64,000 nt of DNA from Tieghemostelium lacteum. Its lineage: Eukaryota > Evosea > Eumycetozoa > Dictyosteliales > Raperosteliaceae. The translations under genes were made by a program, and so were the position numbers. Location: assembly GCA_001606155.1 (NCBI GenBank), contig LODT01000013.1, positions 558,001 through 622,000 on the forward strand, in the 5' to 3' direction. The notes below the pieces were generated by a model. The model saw only the letters and a program-made list of their open reading frames with translations, was not told the DNA's origin and searched no databases. Below, one piece after another: positions 1-10,009 of the stretch (positions are counted from its first letter, which is position 1; each line of letters starts with the position of its first letter).

Positions 1-3000
1 TGGGTGATTTTAACCCAACTAAACATGTTCCAGGTTCATTAGCGTATGTATTAATATAAGTGCATAGTATGATTAGAAATTTATGTGATATTAATTTAGA
101 TTTGTGATATAAAAGTGTTAAGGAATTTGTGCCACAACAATGGGTAAAAACTAAAGGTATTGAAAAGGATATCTACAGGGAATACAAAAAATTGGTATCT
201 ATGAGTGAAGTCAATGCCAAATATAGATATGTTCAATTATGTAGATCTCTAAAGACCTACGGTATGACTAGTTTTGATGTAAAAATTCGTGATAGAAAGA
301 AATTGGTTGATCATATTTTAGGTGTAACTAGAGAACAGTTGATTTTAATGCTTACTGAAACTAAGGAGGTTTTAAAGAGTTATCCATTGAAACATATTAG
401 AAGATGGGCTGCAACTGAGAAATCATTTACATTGGATTTTGGTGATCATGAGACTGAATACTTGATTCTCCATACCATGAACCCAGAGTCTATTTCTCAA
501 TTGATTAGTGGTTACATTGAGATTATTATGAAATCACGTAGAGATGCTACCAAGACTATTGATGTAGAGGATACATCTATTGGACAAGTTGAACAGGTTG
601 CTGTTAAGAAAGGGTCTGTTACTACAAGTTCAACATACTCAGGTTACCAAGGGTCAGGTAACCCTAACCAATACCAAGTGTCACCAAGTCAACAGATCCC
701 CATTACAGATCTCAAGAATGCATTGAGAGCCACTGATTTACTCATTGGTGAACTTAATTCAATGCGTGGAGGTCAATCTGTACAAGGTCAGACATTCTCA
801 AGATCATTTACAACTCTTACACCACAACAATACAAACATCAGTTGATTAGTCACTCCAATGCTATTGCAACTGCTGCAACTGCTCTCTTTCATGATATGT
901 CAAATCCACCATCTTCAGGTGGTATTGCAGCTTCTCAACAGAATATACTCAAGAGAGCTCAAATCATCATGGCAGAACTCAATACTGTAGGTACCTCAGC
1001 TAAAAATGCTGCTTATTTCCCTGAATTGGCATCATTTTCTGATGAGATTTTAGGTGTTGCAACAAAGATCTCTGAGAGTATGGCTAGACTCTTACAAACA
1101 GCTTCACAGATTCAAGGAGACCATGCAGATGATAAAGGTAGACAATTAGCTCAACATGAAGTATTTTCAATTTCTGCATTGGCAAAGATGATGGTTGCAG
1201 TATGTGATAATGATTATGTTACTGAATCCAGTTCTAATTTACTTATTGAATGTGCTAAAGGTGTTGCCTCTGCAATTAGTCAAATGTTGGAATTGGGTAA
1301 TGATAAAATCAATCTAATTGACGATGAAATTCTCTTCCAACAGGTTCAGTCAACTATCAAAGCTACCGAATTGAATAGTCAGGAATTCTTAACTACAACT
1401 GAACAGTTAGCCTCAACAGCTGCTCACCAAGAATCCAAGAAATCCATTGCTGCTCTATCTCAAGCCACACTCACTAATGTAAACTCTCTATTGACTACAT
1501 TCAAAAGTGGAGATATCCCACAACAAGATTACCTCGCTCTTCAAACTAAAGTAAGTGATATCATGGATTCAATGAATTTAGTCACCTATGCACTAGACTG
1601 CGTTGAACAAGAACAAAAGATATCCATTTCATCCAATGGTACTGAAATTGGTGCCGGTGAGTCTGTAAATATGGGTAATCTAGCTGAGGAATTTGCATCT
1701 GTTGCTAATGATCTCACAAGTTCCATTATGCTACTCAGAAACAATCTTAAGAACCCAGAGACTATTATGGAATCTTATAAAGTAATTGCCAATAATGCCA
1801 ATAGATTAATTAATTGTGCCAAATCAGTTGCATCTAGAGCTGATCCTCAGAGTCAACAGAGATTGTTTAATAGTGCCAATGCAGTATTTGAGAGTGTAGC
1901 TGTACTCTCTAATCATTGCAAATCACTTGTAAAGACACCTGATAACCAGTCACTACATTCCACAATTATGGAAACAGCAGGACATTTACAATTCCTAACT
2001 CAAAACATGTCAGCAGATGCCGGTAAGATTGCAAACATCACAGCACTTCGTGACCATTCAAAAGATATGATTAGTCATGTATCTCACTTGATTTCAACTT
2101 CCAGAGCCTCTGTATCACATCTTCCAGATCAATCAGCAACATCTCTATTGAAGGCATCGAAAGATGTTAGTGACGCATTATCCAAATTGATGGTTGGTAT
2201 TAAAAGAGTTGTTCAAGATCCCAAATCAGAATCCATTCAAGTTGAGTTACTAAATCTCTCTCAGAAGCAATCATTGGCACCAATGAACTTGGTATCGACT
2301 TCCAAACGTCTCGCTGCTAAAATCTCAGACCCCAACCAAAAACAAGCATTGATATTCTCAAGTGATGCTGCTTCTCAATCTGTTCAAAGACTCATGAAAA
2401 CATGTGAGAATTACAAAAAGGTTTGTGGTCACTTGGAAATTGAGGAAGCTTTAGAGGCTTTCGATTCGACCATCTCTGATTTGGATACCACTGAAATTGC
2501 AATTCAAGGTGGTTTCTTGGATACCATTCCAGGACAGACCAGAGAAGGTTCTACAGAGTTACTTATGGTTTCTATCAAAGATCTCAATAATGCCAATCAA
2601 GAGTTAATTACAGAGATTCGTGTTAATCCATCTAGACTTGGTGAATTAGTTAAAAACAGTACTAGCTCAGCATCACAAGTTGCATTGGCTTCTAAATCAT
2701 TGATATCGGTAACCAATGGAAAAGCAGCTCAGAAGAAACTCATGGCTGTTACCAAACAACTCATGAATGATATGGAACAATTGGTTAGAGCTTCTAGATC
2801 AGTTTCAACAAATCCAAATGATCCAGGTGCTGATTTGCTGTTGGATGCTGCAAGTCAAGATGTTGGTATCAGTGTAGCATCACTAGTAGGTGCTGCATCT
2901 CATATTGATTGTAAAGAACTTGAAGAGGCTTCTGCAGATATTACCCAACTAATTGCTGTTAAATTACACCCAGAATTCATTTGCCATCCAACAGAGTCTT

Positions 3001-6000
3001 TTAGCTACTATGTAGAGGAATTGGTACCTTCTAGCAAAGCTTTAAGTGCTGCCATCTTACAAATTGTCTCCATGGCTAGAAATAAGAACATTAAAGGTTT
3101 AGGTGCAAGTTCAAAGATTACAGCATCTACTATCACAACATTAGTAGGTCACTGTGTCAATGCAATTGCATTGGCTGACAATGAAGGTACTAAGCAAAGT
3201 ATCCAACTTGCTACTACTGCACTTGGAAATCAGGTAACTAGTTTATTAGATTTTGCTAAAGCTCGTGTTGCAAATTATAAAGATCCAATTTATGATCAAA
3301 ACCTCCTACAAGCTTCCAAATCAGTTGAAGACACTATTGCAAAGGTCATCAGATCACTAGGATCCGGTGGTGGAAATCAATTGTGTGATGAAGCTATAGA
3401 CAGAATTATTGAATCTACTAGAACTCTTGAACAGACATTTGTACCTGATGCATCTGGTATTCCAACTACTACACTTGAAATGAATAATCAACAATCATTA
3501 TTGGCTCTAACAGAGACTTCCAAGAAACTTGGTTCACTTACCAGTAACTTGGTCTCTCAAAAGAACAATTCAGAACATTTAGGTAACAATGCAACTGAGG
3601 CATCTCATTTGATTAGTGAAATGATTGAAAATGTTAAACAAGTTGTTGTTAGTACAATTTCATCGTCACCACCTGATATGTTGATCCCTTGTAAGACCAT
3701 TTTAGATAACACTGCTGTTATCAATGGTAATATGGGTAATATCCAAACTGTTATCACTAGTGCTCGTATGATTGCTGCTCAAACTTCACAATTGCTCTCT
3801 GTAGGTAAAGAAAAGGTTTCAGCACTCTCTGAAGACGATGAACAAGTTCAACCTATTCGTGACAGTATCATTAAAGCTACACAACAATTAGCCATGTCAA
3901 CTAGTAGTTTGGCAAAAGGTGTAAAAGCACTTTCCCAAAAGGAGCCTGGTTATCAACAACTAATGAATCAAGCTGTAAAGGATATTGAATTGGCAACAGG
4001 TCATTTACTCATTAGTACTTCCACTCCATCCATGGAAAGAGGTATCAATAACAGTGACTTTGAAAAACTCTTATCTACATGTAGATCAGTTTCAACAAAT
4101 ACCTCTCAACTTATAACATCAGCCAATGCATCAGCTACCAAACCTAAAGATATGGAGCTCTCTGGAAACCTTTCTGAATCAGCTATATCCATGTCCAACG
4201 CTATTAAAGAAATTCTCAAGGTTTCATCAAGTATGATGCCAGGTGTCAATTTCTGTGAGGAAGCTATTGAGGTTGCTCAACGTGCAATTTCTGATTTATC
4301 TTCAATGTCTTTATCAGTAGCTGTAGGTTCATTTGACAGTAAGAATAACAATAGAGATGGTGTAACTCATCTTGAAGCTCAAGAAGCAATGGTTGAAATC
4401 ACTAAATCTATTGGTAAGGGAATTAATGAATTACTCAAAGCCTCTAGACAATCACCAGAGGCTATTGGTGTAACTGCAAAATCTCTCAGTTATATCGCAC
4501 CTTCATTGGTAAATACAACCAAGACCTCTTTAGCCACAACCCAAGACCAAGACGAACAGAATAATATAGTAACTGAATCAAAGAATCTTGGTGACTCCAT
4601 TTTGAAATTGGCTCAAGCTTCTTTAGTTGCATCATCTAATCCATCAAAGGAAACATATCAGACTATTGTCACTAAATGTACTGATGCCTCTGATGCAATG
4701 AACAAATTAGTTGCTCAAATCTCATCTGGTGTCAACTTGTACAAAGATCTCGATGAATCCATTGAGAAGATCAAGCAATCTGTAATTAACTCTCAAGTTA
4801 AAACTGATGAATCTTCAACTCGTTCATACCAAGAATACAAAGATGAGATTAACAATAACACTAAGGATCTTACAATTGCACTCAAGAGTCTTGTTGCAAC
4901 TGATCAATCCAATCTCGTACAAATTTCAACAGTCTCTAAAGATGTTGCCAACTATGTCAGTAACATTGCTCAAAGTGTTTCGAGTATCCTCACAACAACC
5001 TCTGATCCAAAGATTAGAGATTCCATCATTGTCAATGCCAAACAAGTTGTCTCTGCAAGTGGTGATATTATCCAATTCCTCAAATTGGCAACTACCGATA
5101 AGAACCTACAAAGTGTTGGTAAATTGAATGATAACTTTAAAGTTGCTTCTGATGGTATCACTAGATTCCTTCAATCTATTAAACAAGGTGCCATCGGTGA
5201 GATTCTCTCTGATGCTGCTATTGACCAAATCAGAAAAGTCATCAGTGATTTGGATGCCTATTCTCTATTTGCAGCTGCTGGTCAACTTGATCTTGAACAA
5301 TCTACCCCAATTCCATCCGGTGAAATGGGTAAACAAAACCATCTAAAGAATCTCCAAAAGGATGTTGTATTGAATGCTAAAGTACTCATTGTCAGTGGTT
5401 CTCAATTAGTAGGTTCATCAAAAGGTACTCAAGAAAATTTAGGTGCTGCCACTACTAAACTCGCTCAAACTGTTCAACAATTGATTAAATTTGCAAAGGA
5501 AATTGCTAGTGTTCTCTCAGACCCTGATTCACAATTAGATATTCTATCAGCTTCCAAAGCACTCTCCATTGCATGTCAACAATTGGTACTTGCAGGTAAA
5601 GACGCTCAAAGATTCAAAAAGGATGCTACAGCCTTCAGATCACTTGGTAAAGCTGCTGAAGCTGTTGCTGAGGCTGTTGGTCAATTCTTGACTTCAGTAT
5701 ACACTGCTATTGCTGATGCTGGTAAAGGTTTGAAAGAACTTGAGAAATCTTATGTCCAGATCTCCAACTACCACGATAAACCAGAGAACTTGTTATCCAA
5801 CCAAAAAGCCACACCAGAAATCTTTGCTCAGTCTGCAAGAGAGGTTGCTAAGAGTAGCATTGAGGTTGTAACTGCCTATTCCACAAGTCAAGATGAGTTA
5901 GTAAAATCATCTCAATTGATAACCAATAATGTCAAAGACTTTATTAGTAATAGTAAAGGTATTACCAATCAATTGGGTGACGATGAAGCTACTAAATCTA

Positions 6001-6923
6001 AAGTTCAAGAATCAGTTAAAGGTGTAACATTAACTGTACTCAATTTAATCAAACAAGTTAAAGATCAAGAAAAAGTTGGAAGTAATGTATCAACCGCTCA
6101 AATTGCTGCCTCAACTAGAGCTGTGGCTGAGAAGATTCAATCTACTTTATTACTCAGCAAGACTCTTCCTGGAGGTCAAAACATTCAAGTCGAAGAAGAA
6201 GACACTGAAGACCTTGAACAAACTGCAGAGAATGAGTTATTGGCATGTGTTAAATCCATTGAAGCTGCTACTGCTAATCTCTTGGCCTCACGTCCAAAGA
6301 CAACTTCCAAAGTCCTCGATGCCAATGGTATTGCAGCTACTATTGTAGATGCAAGTTCAGCGATTGCCAAAGCAGTTTCTAAACTTGTCAGCAGTGCAGC
6401 TGTTGCACAGAGCAAGAGAAGAGAAACCAATCTACAAAGTGGATCATTATATAAGAAAGATCCAACTTGGTCTAATGGTTTAATCAGTGCATCTAAACAT
6501 GTTGCTGGGGCCACAACTAGACTTGTAGAAGCTGCCATTAAGTCAACAAAAGGAAACTTTGAAGAAGAAGAATTGATTGTTACAGCACGTCAAGTTGCAG
6601 CTGCTACAGCTCAATTAGTAACTGCATCCAGAGCAAAGTCTGGTGATGATCCTCAATCTCAAGCTGCACACATGTCACTCAGTCAAGCTGCCAAAGCTGT
6701 AGCTGCTGCAACCTCTGAACTGGTTGCTGCTGCTAAAGCTGCTTCTGCCTTTGAAGAACAACAAATTGAAGAAGATAACCAAGAATTCAATTTCACTGGT
6801 TCCAAGGTCAAAGAACTCGAACAACAAGTTAAAATCCTCAAACTTGAGAAAGAATTAGAAATGGCTAGAAAACAAATGTTAAATACAAGAAAACAAAATT
6901 ACCAAAATGCTCCTAAAAAATAA
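1..6923 (+). CDS. talA: Talin A (filopodin-type), 5' end outside the window
   Basis: Talin links membrane receptors and PtdIns lipids to F-actin at the cell cortex and adhesion sites. The window enters inside the FERM domain: positions 3-43 encode GDFNPTKHVPGSLA, an intron runs 44-115 (GTATGT...AAAAG), and coding resumes at 116 with VKEFVPQQW, which aligns with the vertebrate talin FERM F2 region. Next come RSLKTYG and KSFTLDFGDHE (F2/F3), a very long Ala/Ser/Thr-rich helical-bundle rod, and an I/LWEQ-type actin-binding region near the end. The last ~35 residues form a coiled coil (KVKELEQQVKILKLEKELEM) typical of talin dimerisation helices. No villin headpiece follows, so this is the TalA type, not TalB. 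About 2,282 residues are encoded here; only roughly the first 200 (F0/F1) should lie upstream. Identification is by family resemblance and is very secure. Confidence 0.95.
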
Positions 6924-7065: not shown

Positions 7066-8199
7066 ATGTCTCAAAACAAGCAGTTGAAAATAGTAGTGGC
7101 TGGTGATGGTGCTGTAGGTAAAAGTTCCTATGTGCAGGCATTGGTTACCAATGAGATTTATGAAGATTACGTAGCTACAATAGGTGTAAAAGTTACAAAA
7201 TATACCTATACCTTTGAAGGTGAACCAATAGATATCCTCTTTTGGGATGTTGCAGGTCAAGAAAAGTTTGGTGGATTGAGGGAGGGATATTATATTCAAG
7301 CAGATGCTGCTATTTTGATGTTTGATTTAACTTCTCGTATTACTTATAAAAACATTCCCACTTGGTATTCATCATTATCAAAACATACCAAAAACTTTAT
7401 ATTGATAGGAAACAAATGTGATATGGAAGCTAAAATTCAACAAGAATCTATTTTATTTCATCGTAAAACAAACATGGGTTATCGTAATGTGTCAGTTAAA
7501 ACAGGTTATCAACTCGATGAATCTCTAAATGCATTACTTCGTTCGATAAAAGAAAATGGTGGGTTAAAAACTAAAACTTCTGTTCCATTTGGTAATCCAA
7601 CAACAACAGCATCATCTACACCTTTTACCTTTGGAGCTCTAGCCAAACCAACATCACCATCACCATCAACACCATTTACATTTGGTAATGCAACACCAAC
7701 ATCACCTTTACCCTCTACCTCATTTACATTTGGTAGTGTAACACCAATATCACCTACCGCAGCATACACATTCGGTAATGTAATACCAACATCAACACCA
7801 CCATCAACATCAACACCATTTACATTCGGTAATGTAATACCAACAACAACAGCATCATCTACACCTTTTACCTTTGGAGCTCTAGCCAAACCAACATCAC
7901 CATCAACACCATTTACATTTGGTAATGCAACACCCCCATCATTTGGCAACCCAACACCAGCTTTCACTCAAAATGCCAACGATAACAACAAAATTAGAAA
8001 TGCTGTTGAGTTTGGCATTAAGGTTCAAAACTTCTGTTCTACCCCTGAAAAATACCATCAATTCCTTGGATATTTAGAGCAGTACCACAGAAACCCCAGT
8101 GAATCTAATCAATTGAAATCAAACATGCTGTCATTTTTCCATGGCCACTCAGATTTACTTCAAGAATTTCACCAATATGTAAATAAATCATATATTTAA
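7066..8199 (+). CDS. Ran-like GTPase fused to FG repeats and a C-terminal PAH domain
   Basis: Single exon, 377 aa, starting 142 bp after the talin stop. Residues ~7-165 are a Ran-type GTPase: P-loop GDGAVGKSS, switch I Thr in YVATIGV, WDVAGQEKFGG, the Ran hallmarks GYYIQA and MFDLTSRITYKNIP, the guanine motif NKCD, and SVKT at the G5 position. All nucleotide-binding residues are present, so it should bind and turn over GTP. The Ran C-terminal helix and acidic DEDDDL tail are absent. Instead there is a ~125-residue Thr/Ser/Pro-rich linker with nine FG motifs (mostly TPFTFG), as in FG nucleoporins. The last ~70 residues (IKVQNF...PEKYHQFLGYLEQY...HSDLLQEFHQYV) match the paired amphipathic helix (PAH) fold of SIN3. 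I know of no family with this order of domains. A role at the nuclear pore or in chromatin repression is inference only. Confidence 0.85.
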   Translation: MSQNKQLKIVVAGDGAVGKSSYVQALVTNEIYEDYVATIGVKVTKYTYTFEGEPIDILFWDVAGQEKFGGLREGYYIQADAAILMFDLTSRITYKNIPTWYSSLSKHTKNFILIGNKCDMEAKIQQESILFHRKTNMGYRNVSVKTGYQLDESLNALLRSIKENGGLKTKTSVPFGNPTTTASSTPFTFGALAKPTSPSPSTPFTFGNATPTSPLPSTSFTFGSVTPISPTAAYTFGNVIPTSTPPSTSTPFTFGNVIPTTTASSTPFTFGALAKPTSPSTPFTFGNATPPSFGNPTPAFTQNANDNNKIRNAVEFGIKVQNFCSTPEKYHQFLGYLEQYHRNPSESNQLKSNMLSFFHGHSDLLQEFHQYVNKSYI

Positions 8200-8325: not shown

Positions 8326-10009
8326 ATGGAATCCCAGTCATATAATAATGAAAGCAAGGAGTTATTAAAACAACAAGATGAATCCATTGAAGAGATATCA
8401 CCTCAATCAAAGATAAAGTTTTCCGATTTTCCAACATCAATTAGATTTATTTTAACATCAGAAATTTGTGAAAGATACTCTTTCTATGCAGTTAGATCAA
8501 TTTTTGTCATATTTCTTATTGAATTTCAGGGCTACGGAGAAGATTTATCAACAACTATACTACACACATTTAATGCCTTTGCTTATTTTTTGTAGGTTTA
8601 GATTATTAACTTTCCTCATGATAATTTACTTATTCTCCAATAGCCCTTTACTTGGATCATATTTAGCAGATTCAAAACTCGGAAAATATAAAGTATTATT
8701 GTATTTTGGTTGTATTTACTCTCTAGGATGTGTATTTTTAACATTAGCAAGTATAGATGGTGTGACTGGGGATGAACCTGGAGGTAGGTCACCTTGGGCA
8801 ATTGTATTAGGTTTAGGGTTATTGGCACTAGGAACTGGTGGAATTAAACCTTGTGTTTCTACATTTATAGGTGACCAATTAGGTAGTGATAAAAATCACC
8901 TCTTAGAAAGACTTTTTCAAATGTTTTATTGGTGTGTCAATTTAGGATCACTTTTCTCAACAATATTATCCCCTATCATTCACAGATATATATCCTATTG
9001 GGTTGCTTTTTTAACTCCAGCTTTTCTATTGGTATCTTCCACAGTTATTTTGTGGGCTGGAAATAAAAGATATATCAAAAGACCACCAACTGATAGTCTT
9101 CTTGTGAAACTTGTTGGTGTGGTCTATACAGCAATTAGAGAAAAGATTAGACTAAGAAAAAGTATAAATCCAGATAGTAAACCACAGCATTGGTTAGATT
9201 ATGCCAAAGTGGAATATGACAGCGCTTTGGTTGATAGTTTTAAAACTGCATTTAAAGTATTAGTAGTTTTTATACCATTACCATTATTTTGGAGTCTCTA
9301 TGACCAATCAAGTTCTAGATGGCTCCTACAAGCAAGAGAAATGAAATTGATTTTTGGAAAATTCGAAATCCAATCAGATCAAATTCAATCTTTAAATCCT
9401 CTAATTGTCATGTTTCTAATTCCTTTAGTGGAATATTTTGTCTATAGGCCACTTAGAAATAGAAACATAGATTTTAAACCGTTGGCAAAAATGACTGTTG
9501 GAATGTTTTTAACAGCCCTCTCGTTTGTGGTTTCATTATTGCTACAGTTGTGGATTGACAGATCGGAACCAAATTCCATACCAGTATTTGTACAGATTCC
9601 TCAATACCTTATCATTGCAATTGCAGAGGTATTAATAAGTATACCTGGACTTGAATTCTCATACTCTGAAGCTCCATCCAGTATGAAAAGTATTATTATG
9701 TCTGGATGGTTACTTACAGTTAGTTTAGGTAATATTTTTGTTGTATTGGTAGTAAGTGGTATAAACTTTTCAGAACAATGGCACGAGTTTTTGTTCTTTG
9801 CAAGTTGTATGTTCTTTTTCGCCTGTATTTTTATTGTAATTGCCAAGAGATATAAACCAACTGATTCAACCATTGCAAACTACACTGAACCTGAAGATTC
9901 ATCTCAGCAATTAGAATACGACAATAATCTAGAATTTAATAATCAAATTATATTAAATACCCCTCCAAAAAATAGGTACCACAAACTTACATCACAACAA
10001 GAGGATTAA
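8326..10009 (+). CDS. POT/PTR (SLC15-type) proton-coupled oligopeptide transporter
   Basis: CDS join(8326..8591, 8644..10009), 543 aa. The 52-bp intron (GTAGGT...CCAATAG) restores AYFFPLLGSYLADSKLGKYK, the signature end of TM2/loop of POT transporters; without it the first frame stops. Family marks: ICERYSFYAVRSI in TM1 (the ExxER-type motif for proton coupling), GLGLLALGTGGIKPCVS, and FYWCVNLGSLFS in TM4-5. About twelve hydrophobic segments are visible, with a long hydrophilic loop around residues 215-275 and a hydrophilic C-terminal tail. The predicted role is uptake or lysosomal export of di- and tripeptides with protons, useful to a cell that feeds by phagocytosis. Substrate range and membrane cannot be read from sequence. 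Convergent with the next gene. Confidence 0.92.

Follow-up and report, generated by a model that had tools for sequence, protein, structure and literature searches.

A probable single-gene fusion of a Ran-like GTPase, an FG-repeat linker and a SIN3-type PAH domain in Tieghemostelium lacteum

The window analysed here is a stretch of 64,000 nucleotides from the dictyostelid Tieghemostelium lacteum (contig LODT01000013.1, positions 558,001 to 622,000 of the forward strand), and at 7066..8199 on its forward strand lies an open reading frame that is probably a real fusion, in one gene, of a Ran-like GTPase, a linker of phenylalanine-glycine (FG) repeats and a PAH domain of the SIN3 type. A second gene on the same contig joins a Ran-like GTPase to a PAH domain through a linker that lacks FG motifs. 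Of the original prediction, made from the window alone, the three domains, the open frame and the loss of the acidic tail of Ran are supported, whereas its picture of a GTPase tethered in or near the nuclear pore, recruiting PAH ligands and so linking transport to gene repression, is conjectural. The emphasis moves to the Ran and PAH domains as the shared unit, with the FG array added to one copy. Few small GTPases are as conserved as Ran, and here tail-less copies carry a SIN3-type dock in two genes.

The frame runs from ATG to TAA through 377 codons with zero internal stops, and each of the five alternative frames across 7066-8199 carries 21-33 stops. It is very improbable that two adjacent genes, or one gene split by an intron, have been misread as a single open reading frame. 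A search of the frame for any GT..AG span of 45-600 nucleotides with at least 70% A+T did return 22 candidates, but none of these covers the linker (none overlaps it by more than 100 nucleotides), the 377-codon frame is continuous, and in the second gene, too, a single frame begins with a Ran-like domain and ends with a PAH. Among the matches listed, the four most A+T-rich spans start at 7337 or 7365, and excision there would remove conserved Ran residues. These spans were judged to be chance occurrences and rejected as introns, and it is because the listed candidates would delete such residues that the fusion gene is read as one exon, as originally predicted.

The GTPase domain occupies residues 1-165 (7066..7560, forward strand), as defined by Pfam (Ras family, residues 8-162), a PDB search, alignment and a tree. 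Among the 60 top-scoring PDB chains listed, 44 are Ran or Gsp1, with E-values from 6.8e-44 to 8e-41 over residues 5-160 of the query, and the best small GTPase that is not a Ran follows at 1.1e-22. In a nine-row tree, the Ran-type branch of four rows has support of 100/99. Identity to human Ran is 73 of 156 aligned residues (72 of 156 over Ran positions 10-165), and rises to 16 of 18 positions in switch II (Ran 64-81), which lies in the stretch WDVAGQEKFGGLREGYYIQA (residues 60-79, 7243..7302, forward strand, from the alignment to human Ran). The P-loop GxxxxGKS, Thr42, Gln69, the NKxD motif and Lys152 are retained, while Ala151 is replaced by Val and Thr24 by Ser; at the level of sequence, the catalytic and nucleotide-binding motifs of a Ran-type GTPase are thus in place, as had been claimed. 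Lys71, Phe72 and Arg76 are also kept, Phe72 being described in PMC3852005 as the residue of Ran that is buried by NTF2.

What is missing is the C-terminal helix of Ran and its acidic DEDDDL-type tail. The G domain instead runs straight into the FG linker, in agreement with the predicted loss of the tail, whereas the canonical Ran of the same genome ends in DDDDDQI. Because the tail is missing, the window protein is classed not as a Ran but as a G domain of the Ran family that is set in a new architecture. The Pfam scan of the window protein gave no Ran_BP1 match; a Ran_BP1 profile scan of the genome (23.3 Mb in 43 contigs) gave two places, and Ran-binding domains therefore exist in this genome. 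A structure predicted for the whole protein, with its own sequence as the only input, was uninformative about the GTPase and the packing of the domains, with a mean predicted local distance difference test score (pLDDT) of 41.8 and residues 1-305 all below 50.

The C-terminal PAH region (residues 301-377, 7966..8196, forward strand) was identified by Pfam, a PDB search and a structure model. The Pfam PAH family, PF02671, matches residues 328-371 (8047..8178, forward strand) with an E-value of 6.8e-7 and 29.3 bits on the whole protein, above the cut-off of 21.3, and with 33.1 bits on the C-terminal piece alone, so that the PAH assignment of the original prediction holds. Its proposed comparison of the C-terminal fold with a PAH bundle also came out in favour: residues 297-377, modelled alone, form four helices, as in solved PAH domains. 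The SIN3 chains in the PDB match the C-terminus with a best E-value of 1.3e-6, a figure that sums several PAHs of one protein, and the best single-domain chain gives 8.3e-4. In the Pfam scan the window protein has one PAH only, with no HDAC-interaction or further SIN3 family and no nucleoporin scaffold, and by its sequence it is not a SIN3.

Seven places in the genome score above the PAH cut-off. When all seven PAHs were compared, that of the window protein scored 38.5 bits against its paralogue, 36.6 against SIN3 PAH2 and 27.7 against PAH1; the paralogue PAH scored 60.5 bits against SIN3 PAH2, 39.3 against PAH1 and 38.5 against the window PAH. Among the PAHs of this genome's SIN3, encoded at 762-766 kb of the same contig, PAH2 is the best match of both fusions. 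Two PAH-like stretches were seen on other contigs, both on the reverse strand. A 51-residue open stretch, VVIARVTDLFRGHRHLISGF (L038:2684-2839, near 833.7 kb of contig C19), is a near-exact match to the latter half of SIN3 PAH1, and may be either a fragment or one exon of another SIN3-like gene. A frame of 945 amino acids near 486 kb of contig C2 (L039:1235-4072) has one PAH of 51.2 bits; it also scores 25.1 bits with a ZNF598-type PAH model (cut-off 25), and matched no other SIN3 family.

The second Ran-PAH gene was found by genome search about 39 kb before the window gene and outside the window (C11:525262-526236, equivalent to L037:2263-3237, forward strand). It encodes 324 amino acids that match Ran with an E-value of 6.1e-56 and PAH with 39.6 bits, and an acidic stretch directly follows its G domain. 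Switch II, nearly intact in the FG-bearing copy, is degraded in the paralogue to WDIPGSESFPM. Since Gln69, Thr42 and Lys71 are all changed to Ser and Lys152 to Arg, GTP hydrolysis by the paralogue is probably impaired. The neighbours of the paralogue, a B-box/Kelch gene and a weakly F-box-like gene, differ from the talin-like and transporter genes that flank the window gene, and the near surroundings were therefore not duplicated together with it. Because the paralogue has the Ran and PAH domains without the FG linker, these two domains are taken as the shared unit; they most likely came together first, and the FG array was added later to one copy as a tandem repeat. On grounds of parsimony, the simplest history would be an intron-free Ran copy that captured a SIN3 PAH2-like domain and was then duplicated, with gain of the FG array on one side and loss of the Gln on the other.

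The lack of introns also bears on a different view of both genes, that they are fast-evolving Ran retrogenes of the genetic-conflict kind which disturb canonical transport, with the added domains of minor importance. The intron of canonical Ran (73% A+T, donor GTAGGT, borders placed by eye) is absent from both fusion frames, and the branches of the fusions are long (0.85 and 0.72; that of canonical Ran is 0.27). There is precedent in Drosophila, for which PMC8645118 describes fast-evolving, RNA-mediated duplicates of nuclear-transport genes and many Ran pseudogenes. However, loss of an intron is not in itself proof of retroposition, and a recognisable PAH kept in two genes would be hard to explain if it had no function; this view seems improbable. 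Provided that the intron borders drawn by eye are correct, canonical Ran itself, on the reverse strand of L040 (contig C24, near 288.3-289.1 kb), carries a Pro (YIPTLGV) at Ran position 41. No relatives encoded on viral contigs were found, where five stretches matched the peptide pattern only.

The linker between the two domains (residues 166-300, 7561..7965, forward strand, delimited by motif count) contains no acidic residue. It holds nine FG motifs (six FTFG, one YTFG, one PFG and one SFG), spaced 8-18 residues apart in a background rich in Thr, Pro and Ser; the 136 residues counted (165-300) include four Lys and zero Asp, Glu, Arg or His. In 100,000 rounds of shuffling, the letters of the linker gave a mean of 1.3 FG and a maximum of 7, so the nine motifs of the original prediction exceed the shuffled range. 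Two FG dipeptides that sit inside the folded domains, at 68 and 316, were excluded from the count. The nine motifs are not independent events, because they are mostly copies of a 48-nucleotide tandem repeat (7647..7941, forward strand, 6.2 copies by DNA repeat analysis), each FG unit being about 16 residues; an 81-nucleotide stretch of the array recurs at 93% identity.

By composition, an FG nucleoporin is recognised by a series of FG motifs within a non-globular stretch of low charge, and the linker has this character. It is nonetheless called FG-like and the protein is not filed as a nucleoporin, because the Pfam family Nucleoporin_FG scores 13.0 bits, below its cut-off of 32.2. Nor does the array seem to have been copied from the nucleoporin genes of this genome, an origin that was considered and not supported, since the flavour of the motifs differs. 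Only 3 of the 210 FG motifs in nine FG-nucleoporin-like frames (the distinct ones among 26 PF13634 matches, at loci clipped to about 3 kb) are FxFG, and such an origin is therefore probably to be set aside. The single place in the genome that matches Nsp1_C, a frame of 721 amino acids on contig C39 that is also an FG locus, has mainly SLFG motifs and no FxFG among 18. A protein search of the same genome gave 51 other matches, of which five pass residue 165 (reaching 168-217) and all five begin in the GTPase; none of the 51 is confined to the linker, although simple sequence may be masked in such searches.

These features bear on whether the protein could be a stably pore-resident, nucleoporin-like Ran, as in the original prediction; its FG array would then be the anchor in the mesh, and its PAH would bring repressors to the pore. 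Nine motifs in 136 residues is about the density of a nucleoporin, Nup98 being given about eight per 100 residues in PMC9918544, and FSFG repeats with uncharged spacers are described there as very cohesive in vitro, for a construct with 52 motifs as compared with nine here. On the other hand, the motifs are few, the Pfam scan found no nucleoporin scaffold domain and a Nucleoporin_FG score well under the cut-off, and RanBP3, a soluble nuclear partner of Ran, has FxFG motifs too (as described in PMC3045386). Stable residence in the pore is unlikely. The FSFG construct also binds receptors, even minus one third of its motifs, according to PMC9918544. Cohesion together with receptor binding therefore fits a pore resident and an adaptor alike.

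The reading preferred here, tentatively and at somewhat less than an even chance, is that the window protein is a tail-less Ran paralogue that acts as a GTP-switched adaptor, with the PAH for ligands of the SIN3 PAH2 type and the FG array for transport receptors or the mesh. The PAH would grip the amphipathic helix of a protein that is otherwise bound by SIN3 PAH2. The FxFG array may give a hold to transport receptors or to the FG mesh of the pore, and the nucleotide state of the GTPase, whose hydrolytic residues and switch II are intact, could select which receptor is met. Overall, SIN3-type ligands would be carried to the nuclear periphery, or kept there, by an adaptor that can be switched. 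A more specific form of this, which must be considered a long shot, is a one-chain transport adaptor in which the nucleotide sets the site of release, the FxFG array serves for travel through the pore, and SIN3 ligands are either carried or concealed by the PAH. If this were true, the Ran gradient would directly set where co-repressor partners are available, and the paralogue, with its hydrolysis site changed, would be a constitutively GTP-like counterpart without FG.

Several observations weigh against the switched adaptor. There is no FG motif in the linker of the paralogue, and FG motifs are thus not needed for the Ran-PAH unit. The PAH of the window protein is further from SIN3 PAH2 than is that of the paralogue. 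A scan of the genome with NTF2 (PF02136) gave no match, perhaps because of introns, as genes are matched exon by exon. The grouping of the two fused GTPases as sisters has support of 70/78, which 180 of 500 label shuffles equal, and two separate Ran-PAH fusions are possible. Finally, selection for the FTFG core is suggested but not shown. Pairwise comparison of seven repeat units gives a ratio of amino-acid to silent differences (pN/pS) of 0.05 in the core and 1.09 in the spacers (0.06 and 1.01 after one near-copy unit is dropped), but these values are suggestive only, because the unit pairs are not independent, the units were chosen for having FG, and least-change counts of silent to amino-acid changes (3:1 in the core, 6:15 in the spacers) give a Fisher p of 0.12.

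Four points favour the main competitor, according to which the FG array is an incidental product of a Thr/Pro/Ser-rich, tandemly repeated linker with no role at the pore, and the functional Ran-PAH unit is a decoy or an adaptor, linked to a GTPase, for the ligands of SIN3 PAH2. The paralogue has the Ran-PAH unit with no FG in its linker, the array consists of tandemly repeated DNA in which some units are nearly identical, its FTFG motif is unlike those of the clipped FG-nucleoporin-like loci, and the least-change test is not significant. However, six of the seven FG-chosen units have FTFG and one YTFG despite diverged silent sites in the core (pS 0.58-0.64), and a bare linker offers no obvious cause for Phe spacing like that of an FG domain, in a Ran-family protein. 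An incidental array is considered doubtful, less probable than the adaptor and more so than a resident nucleoporin. The gene offers a natural experiment in what stays of Ran once switch, mesh and chromatin dock share one molecule. It is also a compact system, tractable by genetics, in which to test whether nuclear transport can be coupled directly to the availability of co-repressors.

The flanking genes lie close by on the same strand, the talin-like frame ending at 6923 and the transporter frames starting at 8326. The first (window 201-6923, forward strand) has PTB, rod and I/LWEQ domains, and the frame is perhaps only the 3' part of its gene. The second, a POT-family transporter (window 8326-10009, forward strand), consists of two overlapping frames, for which a short intron near 8594-8644 is, by eye, more probable than a frameshift.

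Each of the modules is known from other systems, but the Ran-FG-PAH order and the Ran-PAH pairing are apparently unreported within the literature searched: a targeted search, covering part of its matches and journals open without subscription rather than preprints, found no report of either architecture. The Drosophila retrogenes resemble the fusions as RNA-mediated, fast-evolving duplicates of transport genes, and differ in that gain of FG or PAH is not mentioned in the abstract of PMC8645118. The FG-nucleoporin-like frames of this genome have a comparable median FG spacing of 10-17 residues, but their motifs are mainly SLFG, NLFG, SVFG or SAFG; no GTPase was seen in them, in scans not aimed at GTPases. 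With SIN3 the likeness lies in PAH2, the best SIN3 match of both fusions, and in the four helices modelled for the window PAH, whereas the fusions carry a single PAH and no other SIN3 region in Pfam. With Ran/Gsp1 the window protein shares the G domain, Gln69, Phe72 and the Ran-type TSRxTYKN and FHRK stretches; it differs in having no C-terminal helix or acidic tail and in adding the FG linker and the PAH. Ran-linked proteins with FG motifs include Yrb2 and Nup50/Nup2. RanBP3 and RanBP2 likewise act with Ran and bear FG motifs, and RanBP3, a nuclear cofactor of CRM1, has FxFG motifs according to PMC3045386; a partner of Ran can therefore bear such motifs. RanBP3/Yrb2, Nup50/Nup2 and RanBP2, however, use a Ran-binding domain to bind Ran in trans, whereas the chain encoded in the window includes the Ran-like fold itself.
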